Below, in pieces: positions 23,499-28,761 of a stretch of DNA of 64,000 bases. The DNA lies in NCBI RefSeq assembly GCF_007829885.1, contig NZ_VIWW01000001.1, positions 4,526,001 to 4,590,000 on the forward strand, given 5' to 3'. Under the pieces are notes generated by a model. That model saw nothing but the letters and a program-made list of their open reading frames with translations. It was not told the DNA's origin and ran no database searches. The DNA is from Streptomyces brevispora. Lineage in GTDB: Bacteria; Actinomycetota; Actinomycetes; Streptomycetales; Streptomycetaceae. The position numbers and the translations under genes were made by a program. Each line of letters opens with the position of its first letter. The stretch's first letter is position 1.

Positions 23499-23528
23499 GC
23501 GCCCCGGGGTCCTCAGACCCCGGGGCGC
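23499..23528. terminator. Bidirectional terminator overlapping the TetR gene end
   Basis: Perfect 13-bp arms GCGCCCCGGGGTC (23499-23511) and GACCCCGGGGCGC (23516-23528) with a 4-nt loop. The stop codon of the minus-strand TetR gene (23513-23515) is in the loop, so the hairpin includes the last codons of that gene. Confidence 0.85.
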
Positions 23529-24157
23529 CGTTCGGTCGCCGCCGCGCCCAGCCCCGCGAGCAGCAGCAGCGTGAAGCGCCGGGCCCAGTCCTCGTCGACG
23601 GGCTCGGCGCTCACCAGTGCCCGGTGCACCACCGCACCGGCGATGACGTCGAAGACCAGGTCGGCGGTCAGTGCGGCCATGGCCTCGTCCGCTTCCACCG
23701 GCAACTCCCCGCGTTCCTGCGCCCGCTGCCGGCCCTGGAGAACCAGCCGCTTCTGCCGGTCCACGATCGAGTCGCGGATCCGGGTGCGCAGCGCCTCGTC
23801 GCGGGTCGACTCCGCGATCACCGCCATCAGTGCGGTCTGGGTCTCCGGCCGCTCCAGCAGCGCGGCGAACTGGAGTACCACCGCCTGCACATCGGCGGAC
23901 AGGCTGCCCAGATCGGGCAGTTCCAGCTCGTCGAAGAGGACCGCCACCGCGTCCACGACCAGTTCGTTCTTGCCCGCCCAGCGCCGGTACAGCGTCGTCT
24001 TGGCGACGCCGGCCCGCGTCGCCACATCACCCATCGTCAGCTTCGACCAGCCGAGATCGACCAGCGAGGCTCTGGTCGCCTCGAGGATCGCCTCATCGGC
24101 CGCGGCGTTGCGCGGACGTCCCGTTCGGGAGGGTTTGGGGTGGCTGTGGCTCAGCAT
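23513..24157 (-). CDS. TetR-family transcriptional regulator
   Basis: A 214-residue regulator. The N-terminal TetR helix-turn-helix is clear: DEAILEATRASLVDLGWSKL, TMGDVATRAGVAKTTLYRRW, GKNELVVDAV. The C-terminal domain resembles TetR_C_16/AcrR-like ligand domains (ETQTALMAVIAESTRDEALR). The ATG at 24157 is chosen because the conserved protein begins MLSHSHPKPSRTGRPR. It is divergent from the thioredoxin-TPR gene. A perfect 10-3-10 inverted repeat about 100 bp upstream (24253-24275) is the likely operator, giving autoregulation. The ligand is unknown. Confidence 0.92.
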   Translation of the reverse strand: MLSHSHPKPSRTGRPRNAAADEAILEATRASLVDLGWSKLTMGDVATRAGVAKTTLYRRWAGKNELVVDAVAVLFDELELPDLGSLSADVQAVVLQFAALLERPETQTALMAVIAESTRDEALRTRIRDSIVDRQKRLVLQGRQRAQERGELPVEADEAMAALTADLVFDVIAGAVVHRALVSAEPVDEDWARRFTLLLLAGLGAAATERRPGV

Positions 24158-24475
24158 GACGCGACCATACCCGCCAGTAGCAAGAACCGGCCGGTCCCGT
24201 TGGCCGTGAGACAGATCACCGGGTACTCCTGTGCGGCGGGGGCGGTGGCCAGTTACGCTACGGGTCGTAGCGTAAGGACGACAGCCCAGCTGTTGTGACG
24301 CCACGGACGAACGACAGCCACAGGCGCCGGGTGGGGACCGGGTGCCGAACCGGGCCTTTCAGGGGCCCTCGGACCGTGTCTGTCCGTACACCTCGCACAC
24401 CGGCGGGGGGTCGCGGACGGGCGCGGTTCACGCAACGCTTTCCGGATCGGTGTGCCAAGGGGGGAGGATGTACGT
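24158..24475. other. Divergent promoter region between the TetR and thioredoxin-TPR genes
   Basis: 318 bp without a gene. It contains the TTACGCTACG inverted repeat at 24253-24275. At its right end is a strong GGGGGGAGG ribosome-binding site (about 24459-24467) for the thioredoxin-like gene. Nothing else was recognised. Confidence 0.6.
24253..24275. promoter_or_regulatory. TetR-type operator
   Basis: TTACGCTACG-GGT-CGTAGCGTAA is a perfect inverted repeat with 10-bp arms and a 3-bp centre, the usual geometry for a TetR-family operator. It lies between the TetR gene and its divergent neighbour. Confidence 0.7.
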
Positions 24476-25453
24476 ATGCAGCCTAGGAACATGTCCATGA
24501 GCGGCGTCGTCGACCTCGCCGCGGTGAAGGCGGCCGGTGAGGCCAAGGCGAAGGCGGAGCAGGCCCGTGCCGAGTCCGCCCGGCAGGGTGGCCCCGCCGC
24601 CGTACCCGCTTCCTCCCTCGTGTTCGACGTCGATGAGGCGGGCTTCGAGAGCGATGTCCTGCAGCGCTCCGCCGAAGTCCCCGTCGTCATCGACTTCTGG
24701 GCCGAGTGGTGCGAGCCGTGCAAGCAGTTGGGGCCGCTCCTGGAGCGACTGGCCCAGGAGTACAACGGTCGCTTCGTGCTGGCCAAGGTCGATGTCGACG
24801 CCAACCAGATGCTGATGCAGCAGTTCGGTATCCAGGGCATCCCGGCGGTCTTCGCCGTCGTCGCCGGACAGGCGCTCCCGCTCTTCCAGGGCGCGGCTCC
24901 CGAATCCCAGATCCGGCAGACCCTGGACCAGCTGATCCAGGTCGGCGAGGAGCGGTTCGGGCTCACCGGCATCGTGGTCGACCCGGACGCGGCTCCGGGC
25001 GCGGCCGCGCAGGAGCCCGCCCCGGTGCCCGCGGGCCCGTACGACGCCCTTCTGGAGGCGGCCGCACAGGCGCTGGACGCCAACGACTTCGCCGGTGCCG
25101 TCCAGGCGTACAAGAACGTCCTCTCCGACGAACCGGCCAACAGCGAGGCCAAGCTCGGCCTCGCGCAGGCCGAACTCCTGGCCCGGGTCCAGAAGGCGGA
25201 CCCGCAGCAGGTCCGCAAGGACGCCGCCGAGAATCCGGCCGATGTGCCGGCCCAGCTCGCCGCGGCCGACCTGGATCTGGTCGGCGGTCATGTCGAGGAC
25301 GCGTTCGGGCGTCTCGTCGAGACGGTCCGCCGGACGTTCGGTGACGACCGGGACCGGGTGCGGGTACGGCTGTTGGAACTGTTCGAGGTGATCGGCCCCG
25401 ATGATCCACGGGTCGGCGCCGCGCGTACCGCGCTCGCACGCGTCTTGTTCTGA
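24476..25453 (+). CDS. Thioredoxin-domain protein with C-terminal TPR-like region (YbbN/CnoX type)
   Basis: A 325-residue cytoplasmic protein. A charged N-terminal extension (residues 1-48) is followed by a thioredoxin fold with the active site WAEWCEPCKQ (Cys79, Cys82) and the cis-Pro region GIQGIPAVFAV. After an Ala/Pro linker comes a helical TPR-like domain (AAQALDANDFAGAVQAYKNV, SEAKLGLAQAELL) and a C-terminal GDDRDRVRVRLLELFEVIG typical of YbbN. Such proteins act as redox-linked chaperones or holdases. The ATG at 24476 has a strong upstream Shine-Dalgarno sequence. A good terminator follows. Confidence 0.92.
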   Translation: MQPRNMSMSGVVDLAAVKAAGEAKAKAEQARAESARQGGPAAVPASSLVFDVDEAGFESDVLQRSAEVPVVIDFWAEWCEPCKQLGPLLERLAQEYNGRFVLAKVDVDANQMLMQQFGIQGIPAVFAVVAGQALPLFQGAAPESQIRQTLDQLIQVGEERFGLTGIVVDPDAAPGAAAQEPAPVPAGPYDALLEAAAQALDANDFAGAVQAYKNVLSDEPANSEAKLGLAQAELLARVQKADPQQVRKDAAENPADVPAQLAAADLDLVGGHVEDAFGRLVETVRRTFGDDRDRVRVRLLELFEVIGPDDPRVGAARTALARVLF

Positions 25454-25462
25454 TCTGACAAC

Positions 25463-25499
25463 ACGGCCGCGACTCCTTTCCGGAGTCGCGGCCGTTTTC
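25463..25499 (+). terminator. Rho-independent terminator of the thioredoxin-TPR gene
   Basis: ACGGCCGCGACTCC-tttcc-GGAGTCGCGGCCGT (25463-25495) is a perfect 14-bp stem, followed by TTT. It starts 9 bp after the stop and is the most classical terminator in the window. Confidence 0.92.
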
Positions 25500-25557
25500 G
25501 CGTCGGGGCGATAAGAGAAGCCCGCACTTTACCAAATCTTGATAAAAGCACCGTCTG

Positions 25558-25570
25558 TTACTCGCAGTAA
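25558..25570. promoter_or_regulatory. Small palindrome TTACT-CGC-AGTAA
   Basis: TTACTCGCAGTAA is a perfect 5-3-5 inverted repeat. A related GTTAC-CAGTGA-GTAAC is at 25686-25701. Both sit in the long leader of the DUF6230 operon and share TTAC/GTAA ends. An operator role is a guess. Confidence 0.35.
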
Positions 25571-26050
25571 ATCGCGCCCTGGGATCTGTCCGATTTCGAG
25601 CGTCAATGCCGTGGTTCGTCTGCGGGGCGCGGGCAACCCTGTGTGGCCGCTCGGTGCCGCCCGGTCGTGGGTGGGTTATCGCGCCGTTACCAGTGAGTAA
25701 CGAACCCCCTTGTGTCACAGCCGCGAATGGACCACGATCGGCCACGCTCGGTCCAATGACGTCACTCCGGCTGCCAGTCGGTGCGGCGGCTCCGTTGGGT
25801 CCCCACCGGGTGGGCCGGCGCAGTGGTGCCGGCTCCGGACAGGGGGGTTCCTGTGAATCGCAGGGCCTGTCCGAAGAGGTTGCGCGAACGCGTGGCCAGT
25901 GGTTGTCGCTCGGGGGTGATCGCCGGTGATTCGGGCGCGGTTCACGTCTCCGTTCGCGGGCGCTCTCCTTTCCGAGGACGTAGCACTTCTCCCATCCCAG
26001 GTCGGGCAGGATGCCAGGCCGGAGATGTACGTCCGAGAAGGAGGAAAAGT

Positions 26051-26710
26051 ATGAGTTCCCAGGTTCGCGGTGGCACGAGATGGAAGCGCTTCGCTGTCGT
26101 CATGGTGCCGAGCGTCATAGCCACCGCCGCGGTGGGTGTCGGCCTCGCACAGGGCGCGCTCGCCGCTTCGTTCAGTGTGTCGGGGCAGGAGTTCAAGGTC
26201 AGCGCTGCTGAGCTCGAAGGTTACGACTTCGTGCAGTACGGCAGTGTGGCCACCGAACCCGGCGCCGACCCCAAGGCCTCGGGCAAGGCGCACGCCGTGG
26301 CCGTGTCGGGCTTCAGCAAGGCCTACATCACGAACATGTGCCAGTCGGTCGTCACGCCCAACCTGCCGTTCGGCCTCGGCACCGTCACCATGAGGCTGGA
26401 GGCGGGTGGCAAGGGCCACAAGCGTGTCTACGCCAAGGACCTCTACCTCGATGTGTCGGAGCTCGACGGCGACGCCAAGTTCTCGCACATCGACATCGGT
26501 GTGGCTGCCGGTTCGCTGAAGACGAGCAAGCCCGGGAGCATAGGCATCCAGCCTGGCACCCAGGCCGACCCCAACGGGTTCTCCCAGCGCGCCGAGGAGG
26601 CCGTGCTGACCGGCGTCAAGCAGAAGGCGTGGGCCACGACGGCCGGCACCTTCAACCTCAGCGGGCTGAAGCTGCGGCTCTCCAAGGGCACAGAAGCGGA
26701 GTGCTACTAA
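26051..26710 (+). CDS. DUF6230 family membrane-anchored or exported protein
   Basis: A 219-residue protein with one N-terminal hydrophobic helix (FAVVMVPSVIATAAVGVGLA, about residues 14-33) and then an all-beta-looking domain (FSVSGQEFKVSAAELEGYDF, GTVTMRLEAGGKGHKRVYAK). Some relatives carry an old cholesterol-esterase label, but no GxSxG or other hydrolase motif is visible, so that name should not be transferred. ATG 26051 has an excellent GAAGGAGG. It is first of three genes with the DUF6114 membrane protein and a secreted linker protein. Two Cys residues (in TNMCQSV and AECY) may form a disulfide. Confidence 0.88.
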   Translation: MSSQVRGGTRWKRFAVVMVPSVIATAAVGVGLAQGALAASFSVSGQEFKVSAAELEGYDFVQYGSVATEPGADPKASGKAHAVAVSGFSKAYITNMCQSVVTPNLPFGLGTVTMRLEAGGKGHKRVYAKDLYLDVSELDGDAKFSHIDIGVAAGSLKTSKPGSIGIQPGTQADPNGFSQRAEEAVLTGVKQKAWATTAGTFNLSGLKLRLSKGTEAECY

Positions 26711-26807
26711 GCACCCGTCAGGGTGGCCGGGGCACACACCGTTGGCTTCCGGCCGCCCACCCCTTCTTCTCTCTCACAGCAGTACCGGTTCCAGGGAGCT
26801 GTATTCC

Positions 26808-27398
26808 ATGAGCCCCGAATCCCAAGGGCAGAACGAGCACTACCTCAGCGTCTTCCGGCGGAACTTCCGCACCTGGCGGGGTAACCGACCGTTCTGGGCG
26901 GGCCTGTTCACCATGTTGGGCGGAGTACCCATCGCGTACTTCCCGTACGCGAACATGCACCTCGGCAACGTGACGCTGGCCATGTCCACCACCGCGGGCG
27001 CCGGGTCGCTCATCATCGGGGTCCTGCTCATCACGCTCGGCCTGACGATGTGGTTCCACAGCATCGTCCGGGTGTTCGCCGGTGTCGCCGCGATTCTGCT
27101 GGCCCTCATCTCGATACCCGTCGCCAACATCGGCGGCTTCCTGGTCGGCTTCGTGCTCGCCCTGCTCGGTGGCGCCCTCTCCCTCTCCTGGGCTCCTGGT
27201 GAGCCAGGGGCGGACGAGACCGCGCCCGCAGCGGGAGTTCCCGCCGAGGCGGCACCGGAGGGCCTCTCGTTCACGAAGGACGAGCAGACCGCCGAACACC
27301 CCGGGGGCGCGCTCTACGGGAGCGCAGTTCCGCGGCAGGAGGCGGCGCAGTACGACACGACAGTCGAGGTCGACGGCGGGAGGCATCGTGCGGGGTGA
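26808..27398 (+). CDS. DUF6114 family integral membrane protein
   Basis: A 196-residue protein with four predicted transmembrane helices (about residues 28-50, 57-78, 80-100 and 103-125) after FRTWRGNRPFWAGLFTMLGG, the family signature. The last 65 residues are a hydrophilic, Ala/Glu-rich tail. The stop overlaps the GTG of the following gene. DUF6230 and DUF6114 genes are regularly neighbours in Streptomyces and probably form one envelope assembly. The biochemical role is unknown. Confidence 0.88.
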   Translation: MSPESQGQNEHYLSVFRRNFRTWRGNRPFWAGLFTMLGGVPIAYFPYANMHLGNVTLAMSTTAGAGSLIIGVLLITLGLTMWFHSIVRVFAGVAAILLALISIPVANIGGFLVGFVLALLGGALSLSWAPGEPGADETAPAAGVPAEAAPEGLSFTKDEQTAEHPGGALYGSAVPRQEAAQYDTTVEVDGGRHRAG

Positions 27399-28686
27399 CG
27401 ACGATCAGGCGGACGCCGTGGGCGAGAGCGGGCTCCGGGAGCGAAGAGGACCCCGCCACGCCGCCCCCAGGAAGTCCCTGCTGACCAAGCTGCACATGCC
27501 CGCGGGCAAGAAGGCGTTCGCGCTCGCCGCGATGCCGACCGCGGTGTTCGTCGGGATGGGGCTCACCCCGAAGCTGGCGATGGCCGACGACAACGTGGAC
27601 ATCCCCTTCGCGCCGGGCCCCTGCGTGACCCGCTCCGACGAGCCGAGCGAGTCGGCTTCACCCTCCGCCTCCGCGACGAAGCCGCCGTCCCCGTCCGTCT
27701 CCGCGAGCGACAAGGTCACGCCGGACAGGAGCGACGGCGCCACGCCGAAGCCCTCGGCCACCCCGTCCGCGAGCGCCTCGGGCGACACGGCTGCCGACTC
27801 GGCGAAGAAGAGCACCGACGCCCCGGCAGCCACGCCGAGCGCGACTCCTCCGCCCACCAAGTCGAAGAACCCGCTCGACCCACTGGGGCTCGGCGACACG
27901 CTCAAGGACCTCTTCGACGGACCGGACAAGGAGACGGCCGCCCCGTCCCCGAGCGCCACCACCGCGTCCCCGAAGCCTTCCGCGAGCGCCACCGGCACGG
28001 CCACTGAGAAGGCGGCCGACAAGCCCGTCGAGAAGGCCACGGACGCGGTGAAGGACACGGCCGACAAGACCGCCGACGCCATCCGTGACGCGGCGGACAA
28101 GGCGGGCAAGCCGGTCGAGGAGCTGGACGGGGACGTCAAGGGACTCGACCCCAAGAAGGACGAGGACATCCCGGACGGCGCCAAGCCCTCCTTCCCGTGC
28201 CCGACCGCCGACCCGAAGGCACTGGCCGCGGCCGATCTGGAGCAGGGCATCCCCCGGCTCCCGAACGACCCGTGGATCCTGGAGAGTTCGCTGCTCACCC
28301 TGAACGGACTGGACTACAAGGGCATCGTGGAGGTGGAGAAGGGCGACGGCAGCACGAAGAAGGTGCTGAAGTTCACCGCCTCCTCCGTCGACATCAAGGA
28401 CCTCCACCAGCTGACGGTCGGCCCGATGTCGGATGTCACCGGTCATGTGAAGGCGCGGAAGGGCTCCACCTCCACCATCCGCGACGGCACGGTGACGATG
28501 TACACCGAGGAGCTGAAGGGCAACCTCTTCGGGCTCATCCCGATCACCTTCAGCCCGCAGACCCCGCCCCCGCTGAACGTGCCGTTCGCCTTCTTCACCA
28601 AGGTGAAGGTCACCCAGGCCGGCCAGTTCGGCGGCACGCTGACGGTGCCGGGACTGCAGAACTACTTCACCAAGGGCGCCAACTGA
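27388..28686 (+). CDS. Large secreted protein with Ser/Pro/Ala linker and beta-rich C-terminal domain
   Basis: A 432-residue protein starting at GTG 27388 (GGGAGG upstream) and overlapping the DUF6114 stop. After a basic N-terminus comes a hydrophobic export segment (FALAAMPTAVFVGMGLTPKLAMA). A long low-complexity region rich in Ser, Pro, Ala and Thr follows (about residues 75-210). Then comes an Asp/Lys-rich amphipathic stretch (ADKPVEKATDAVKDTADKTA) like LEA-type repeats, and finally a folded domain of about 160 residues (ILESSLLTLNGLDYKGIVEV ... GGTLTVPGLQNYFTKGAN). The linker suggests reach across the cell wall. Function unknown; a shared fold with DUF6230 is suspected. Confidence 0.85.
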   Translation: MRGDDDQADAVGESGLRERRGPRHAAPRKSLLTKLHMPAGKKAFALAAMPTAVFVGMGLTPKLAMADDNVDIPFAPGPCVTRSDEPSESASPSASATKPPSPSVSASDKVTPDRSDGATPKPSATPSASASGDTAADSAKKSTDAPAATPSATPPPTKSKNPLDPLGLGDTLKDLFDGPDKETAAPSPSATTASPKPSASATGTATEKAADKPVEKATDAVKDTADKTADAIRDAADKAGKPVEELDGDVKGLDPKKDEDIPDGAKPSFPCPTADPKALAAADLEQGIPRLPNDPWILESSLLTLNGLDYKGIVEVEKGDGSTKKVLKFTASSVDIKDLHQLTVGPMSDVTGHVKARKGSTSTIRDGTVTMYTEELKGNLFGLIPITFSPQTPPPLNVPFAFFTKVKVTQAGQFGGTLTVPGLQNYFTKGAN

Positions 28687-28713: not shown

Positions 28714-28761
28714 GACACGGCTGTGGGCCGCACCCCTCGGGGTGCGGCCCACAGCCGTGTC
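28714..28761. terminator. Long bidirectional terminator between the secreted-protein gene and pyk
   Basis: Nearly 23-bp perfectly complementary arms (GACACGGCTGTGGGCCGC... at 28714 and its complement ending at 28761) with a 2-4 nt loop. It separates two convergent transcription units. Confidence 0.88.

Follow-up and report, generated by a model that had tools for sequence, protein, structure and literature searches.

What does a set of three tightly spaced genes in Streptomyces brevispora do for the cell: does it build part of the wall, or does it help the cell to feed? The original prediction, made for the window (the whole 64,000-nucleotide stretch that was analysed), had them as an uncharacterised envelope system, a membrane base with a component reaching through the wall. 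Our preferred reading, to which we give a probability of roughly 0.58, is that the operon is a secreted lipid-ester acquisition system, whose most likely function is to acquire lipid esters from outside the cell or to hydrolyse them there. The genes and their immediate surroundings are these:

24452-25453: thioredoxin-domain gene, upstream neighbour of the operon
26051-26710, + strand: DUF6230 protein, 219 aa (PF19741, AF2 model, conservation)
26808-27398, + strand: DUF6114 membrane protein, 196 aa (PF19609, hydropathy)
27388-28686, + strand: protein 3 (P3), 432 aa, GTG start, with a probable signal peptide, Cys79, a linker, Cys271 and a C-terminal beta domain
28719..28756, no strand assigned: inverted repeat of ~17 bp, read directly, between the operon and a convergent pyruvate kinase gene

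The window sequence, its open reading frames and Pfam confirmed all three genes at these coordinates, and their predicted crowding was correct, with an 11-bp overlap between DUF6114 and P3 and a 97-bp gap between DUF6230 and DUF6114. Both named families were matched over the full profile and well beyond the gathering cut-offs (PF19741, E 2e-54, 184.2 bits versus 27.5; PF19609, E 9e-33, 113.6 bits versus 27.9), and neither Pfam entry has a function attached. For P3 we found no Pfam or NCBIfam family; a SOG2 Pfam match (E 0.41) was rejected as low complexity. The pyruvate kinase gene is the downstream neighbour, and the inverted repeat is probably a terminator shared by it and the operon.

The source genome has a single copy each of DUF6230 and DUF6114. 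At the level of the order (119 genomes), DUF6230 was found in 117 genomes and DUF6114 in the identical 117, with G002 and G023 devoid of both, and the locus was present in 104/104 sampled genomes of the window's genus. Throughout all fetched loci, other classes included, 136 of 138 DUF6230 domains had DUF6114 downstream in the same orientation, at most 353 bp away, and in the other two cases the contig or stored stretch ends there. The thioredoxin-domain gene was upstream in all of the 80 named Streptomyces loci and P3 downstream in 77 (the remaining three being truncated contigs), while pyruvate kinase was matched in 65, the flank being too short in most of the others. Gene order and synteny are thus conserved across the genus far beyond chance. 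The survey of co-occurrence proposed with the original prediction therefore bore out its idea of a co-conserved unit of one membrane component and exported components. At the scale of the phylum (296 genomes), DUF6230 was patchy (19 genomes), reaching other classes and again adjoining DUF6114.

Within this stable setting the operon is evolving much faster than the neighbouring genes, with median identities to the window of 66% (DUF6230), 57% (DUF6114) and 60% (P3) versus 84% for the thioredoxin-domain protein and 90% for pyruvate kinase. In S. pratensis, Sfla_1909-1911, two hypotheticals and a cholesterol esterase (Sfla_1911), are all among the 59 highly divergent core genes within the species (PMC4239341). 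The window DUF6230 is closest to L006-L009 (86-89%) and the window P3 to L012/L022 (85-87%), which may reflect allele exchange inside the operon.

P3 lies outside both PF19741 and PF19609, although its C-terminal domain turned out to be related to DUF6230. Two parts of the protein matter here:

27625..28197, + strand: linker between the invariant cysteines, holding a conserved NPLDPLGLGDALKDLFDG-type helix
28255..28677, + strand: C-terminal domain, remote DUF6230 relative (hhalign, strand order)

The C-terminal domain (approximately residues 290-430) aligned to the DUF6230 profile with an hhalign score of 36.6 (E 5e-5, 139 columns), versus 20.6 for the best of 150 column shuffles and 13.2 for the reversed control; with the signal peptide omitted, the match had a probability of 75%. 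The AF2 models of both proteins contain confident all-beta domains whose strands, compared by eye from strand lists, run in the same order, down to a small C-terminal strand pair (200-202/207-212 in DUF6230, 417-419/424-429 in P3).

The two cysteines are conserved in 77/77 full-length P3 orthologues, one just past the signal peptide and one ahead of the beta domain, separated by 186-251 residues; a third cysteine occurs in two orthologues. Because these invariant residues bracket the linker, it is probably a loop closed by a disulfide between Cys79 and Cys271 rather than a wall-spanning arm, and the C-terminal domain is probably held close to the N-terminus. Most of the linker was modelled with low confidence, with two predicted short amphipathic helices, one in the conserved NPLDPLGLGDALKDLFDG block. 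The N-terminal segment has little hydrophobic character and, in 77/77 orthologues, terminates in an AxA site, and is therefore probably a signal peptide; neither end carries a lipoprotein or LPXTG anchor motif. The claim that P3 reaches through the wall did not survive the combination of invariant cysteines at the linker ends and a cleavable-looking N-terminus.

DUF6114 probably has four hydrophobic segments (counted from hydropathy and partly by eye), an Arg-rich N-terminus and a cytoplasmic tail. In four loci (L003, L144, L151 and L155), and weakly in L146, DUF6114 and the P3 domain form one open frame directly after DUF6230. These fusions functionally link the second and third genes, and they fit a topology in which both ends of DUF6114 lie inside the cell while the P3 domain is outside. 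At L151:4284-8075, in one Streptomyces, two successive DUF6230 genes precede a 739-aa DUF6114-P3 fusion.

The first gene has a published name. SCO5420, named cholesterol esterase, was induced almost 37-fold on Tween 40, and pyk2 is SCO5423 (PMC7494193); the spacing from SCO5420 to pyk2 (three genes) is the same as in the window. By synteny and name, rather than by comparison of entry sequences, the window DUF6230 appears to be the SCO5420 counterpart, and thus a member of the published cholesterol esterase family. Members of this family (SCO5420, SLIV_11405, Sfla_1911 and SACTE_4612) share with the window the gene name and a position flanked by a thioredoxin-domain gene and pyruvate kinase, and they are exported and lipid induced. 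The name reportedly originated in the enzyme purifications of Xiang et al. (2006, 2007), and annotation together with synteny suggests that the purified enzyme was a DUF6230 protein. During growth of S. scabiei on suberin, two extracellular proteins named cholesterol esterase were detected, such annotated proteins were located outside the cell, and C9Z6Y6, a cholesterol esterase by name alone, ranked first in abundance among the extracellular lipid-class proteins (PMC5158115). We found no papers on SCO5421, SCO5422 or DUF6114. "Uncharacterised" was only half right: it overlooked the published esterase name and the Rfam che1 element in the leader. In the literature the cholesterol esterase is a lone enzyme, whereas the window DUF6230 is tied to DUF6114 and to a hidden paralogue. 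The original prediction had also considered a known enzyme acting alone; the name is indeed known, yet DUF6230 is almost never found without DUF6114.

The DUF6230 protein consists of a signal peptide (approximately residues 1-39) and a mature all-beta domain with conserved Cys97 and Cys218. The N-terminal segment described in the original prediction as a single anchor is present, but it ends in ALA-A and so looks like a cleavable signal peptide. Unlike what the family name would suggest, the protein has no classical catalytic set. Among 41 diverse DUF6230 proteins, no His column reached 50% and the conserved positions contained no Ser-His-Asp triad; the conserved polar residues include Ser44, Cys97, Gln98, Ser99, Asp134 and Cys218. 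The AF2 model is all beta, with pLDDT over 90 for most of the mature part. Without a conserved histidine or an alpha/beta model, a classical serine lipase or esterase of the alpha/beta-hydrolase fold was ruled out, and a canonical esterase mechanism is doubtful.

Sequence-profile searches of the PDB with both beta domains gave nothing convincing, and the structural matches were weak (best Foldseek E 5e-3 for DUF6230 and 0.069 for P3, VIA Z 3.0 for each). The candidates returned for the two domains (acetoacetate decarboxylase, HIN-200, hepatitis E E2s and galectins) were all weak and scattered, and we therefore claim no fold for either. With no conserved histidine, no alpha/beta fold and no clear PDB match, DUF6230 would be either an unusual type of enzyme or a lipid binder.

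The region upstream of the operon (25454-26050) was described as a long promoter. It exists at that length, but it is more than a promoter, since it contains, in this order:

25464..25498, + strand: perfect 13-bp stem (CGGCCGCGACTCC / GGAGTCGCGGCCG) followed by TTTT, read directly
25558..25570, + strand: palindrome 1, TTACTCGCAGTAA, probably a TetR-type operator
25687..25700, + strand: palindrome 2, TTACCAGTGAGTAA, 129 bp from palindrome 1, the spacing being nearly constant
25836..25925, + strand: che1 RNA (Rfam RF02935), full-length match, 97.2 bits (gathering 54.1), E 1.6e-14
25964..26044, + strand: conserved hairpin at the ribosome-binding site (RBS), from sequence conservation and pairing

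The stem is the probable terminator of the thioredoxin-domain gene; a simple terminator scanner, which requires five T, did not list it. The leader of ~600 bp (25454-26053) is largely conserved in blocks, one of which (GAATG.ACCACGATCGGC.ACGCTCGGTC, at ~25726-25754) lies outside the palindromes and che1.

At least one TTAC-palindrome was present upstream of the operon in 81/81 Streptomyces orthologues, with two ~129 bp apart in nearly all of them; its expected count in the window was 0.00, and none appeared in background sequence. Genome-wide, the pattern occurred 10 times, versus 2 for the reversed control. Other occurrences lie 5-40 bp ahead of thiolase and FabG-type reductase genes in an intergenic region (L191), 5-40 bp ahead of an acyl-CoA dehydrogenase gene adjoining a FasR-like TetR gene (L198), ~80 bp ahead of an Fe-S protein gene (L192) and at an F420-dependent oxidoreductase/aldo-keto reductase pair; other Streptomyces have counterparts of two of these sites, the one at the acyl-CoA dehydrogenase gene and the one at the Fe-S gene. 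A palindrome common to the operon leader and to thiolase, acyl-CoA dehydrogenase and Fe-S genes points to a fatty-acid-degradation regulon. It resembles the TetR-type (FasR-like) regulons of fatty-acid degradation, with the same palindrome, TTACYN3-4RGTAA, at beta-oxidation genes and as a putative operator here. At L198 a TetR_C_32 regulator with weak FasR similarity (L198:729-1376) is divergent from the acyl-CoA dehydrogenase gene (L198:1552-2775), with the palindrome between them, and its product is a candidate regulator of these sites. SCO3201 was rejected in this role, its site, TGGCAGATTCTGCCA, being different (PMC7324645). A TetR-family-like regulator gene also lies near the operon in the window (23513-24304, - strand), and TetR genes flank DUF6230 loci in L140 and L157 (by Pfam) and apparently in L145 and L156.

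The che1 RNA was detected in 104/119 genomes of the order, only in the window's genus and in 100 cases over the cut-off; where positions were compared, this DUF6230 gene followed it at a distance of a few hundred bases. The motif is credited to Weinberg et al. 2017 (PMC8388888) and its function is stated as unknown (PMC11678152). In S. lividans, che1-SLIV_11405 is an RNA-seq-validated cis element listed under "cholesterol metabolism" (PMC8079986). Rfam types che1 as an sRNA gene, whereas in the window it sits inside the operon leader and is followed by a conserved RBS hairpin outside the Rfam model, which favours a role in cis. In this hairpin, TCTCCTTT (25964-25971) pairs with the Shine-Dalgarno region GAAGGAGG (26037-26044) and GGACGTA (25976-25982) with TACGTCC (26028-26034), while neither the sequence nor the length of the apical part is constant. 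Departures mostly preserve pairing, and double changes were seen in 2 of 29 pairs; with strands this invariant, the hairpin rests on conservation and energy and not on covariation. The computed probability that the Shine-Dalgarno region is unpaired was 0.43 in the full leader, 0.20 without che1 and 0.28 with the che1 3' segment shuffled. These values are suggestive of an RNA switch, in which the 3' segment of che1 could compete for the RBS-masking strand.

Under the reading that we prefer, a TetR-type regulator would be released from the two palindromes in fatty-acid-degrading conditions, and the operon would be transcribed with its che1 leader. DUF6230 would be exported, lose its signal peptide and, outside the cell, hydrolyse lipid esters, in keeping with the published family name, or at the minimum bind them, the esters in question being sterol esters, Tween-like acyl esters or suberin-type lipids. 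P3 would be a second exported copy of the DUF6230 fold with a disulfide-closed linker, whose short amphipathic helices may touch lipid or DUF6114. The latter would be the membrane partner receiving or positioning the other two, possibly in a three-protein complex with hand-over of lipid, and released acyl chains would thereby enter the cell and beta-oxidation. As the operon is apparently switched on with fatty-acid breakdown, it probably helps the cell to feed on lipid esters and not to build wall. This function is supported by context, the Tween induction and the regulon motif speaking to physiology and not to biochemistry, and it leaves room for either hydrolysis or lipid binding as the mechanism. 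In its fullest form, which we consider rather unlikely to hold in every part, the operon would be an actinobacterial lipid-uptake machine made of two paralogous all-beta secreted proteins (with no PDB match), one of them disulfide looped, and a four-helix membrane protein, under acyl-CoA-type control and a che1 leader competing for the RBS-masking strand, any ester hydrolysis proceeding without a conserved histidine.

The closest competing explanation, possible though somewhat doubtful, does away with catalysis: DUF6230 and P3 would be non-enzymatic lipid binders or carriers (a shuttle or chaperone) with DUF6114 as the membrane dock, and the published esterase activity would be very weak or come from a co-purified hydrolase. 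The missing histidine and Ser-His-Asp set, and a confident all-beta model unmatched in the PDB, agree with this, two paralogous beta domains plus a small membrane protein would suit a carrier, and the DUF6114-P3 fusions place a beta domain beside the membrane. However, the family name derives, as far as the titles of the papers tell, from enzyme purifications, and conserved Ser44, Ser99, Asp134 and Cys97 would allow an unusual mechanism.

The other two explanations are weaker. That nothing but shared regulation keeps the genes together, with DUF6230 an independent secreted hydrolase and DUF6114 and P3 serving a separate function, could draw on the paralogous loci L150 and L157, where DUF6230 and DUF6114 occur with no detectable P3 domain; we consider it improbable, since DUF6230 lacks DUF6114 only at sequence ends, the P3 domain is homologous to DUF6230 and fusions join DUF6114 to P3. 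Slightly less probable still is the structural envelope complex of the original prediction, with P3 spanning from the membrane through the wall. A membrane protein with exported proteins and a long Ser/Pro/Ala linker would look the part, and high within-species divergence is typical of surface proteins (PMC4239341), but the cysteines at both linker ends, the AxA site and weak N-terminal hydrophobicity of P3, the fatty-acid regulon link and the Tween induction all stand against it.

The lipid-ester acquisition reading replaces a doubtful annotation as a lone "cholesterol esterase" with a testable system of a paralogous pair, an obligate membrane partner and a fatty-acid regulon, and it gives the orphan che1 RNA a concrete cis-regulatory hypothesis. 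Part of the system was already known, by its family name and by che1; what is new here is the architecture of two paralogues with a membrane partner, together with the loop bracketed by cysteines, the RBS hairpin and the proposed regulon.

Additional copies of the pair occur elsewhere. Seven Streptomyces genomes have a second DUF6230-DUF6114 pair no more than ~0.5 kb from a CYP125 gene (L152:1515-2744, L154:5547-6794, and also G088, G113, G049, G076 and G054), the product of which matches solved steroid C26-monooxygenases at E ~1e-154; this neighbourhood probably arose once, within one clade. A DUF6230-DUF6114 pair from another class has FadB-type, P450, SDR and TetR genes nearby, and both settings speak for the lipid-ester reading. 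Other paralogous pairs are found beside MpaB/Lcp-type oxygenase genes (L146:2326-3177 and L148:2751-3578). A 3.1-Mb actinobacterial genome (G179, locus L139) has several tandem DUF6230-DUF6114 units, with one DUF6230-like domain located within a 304-aa protein.
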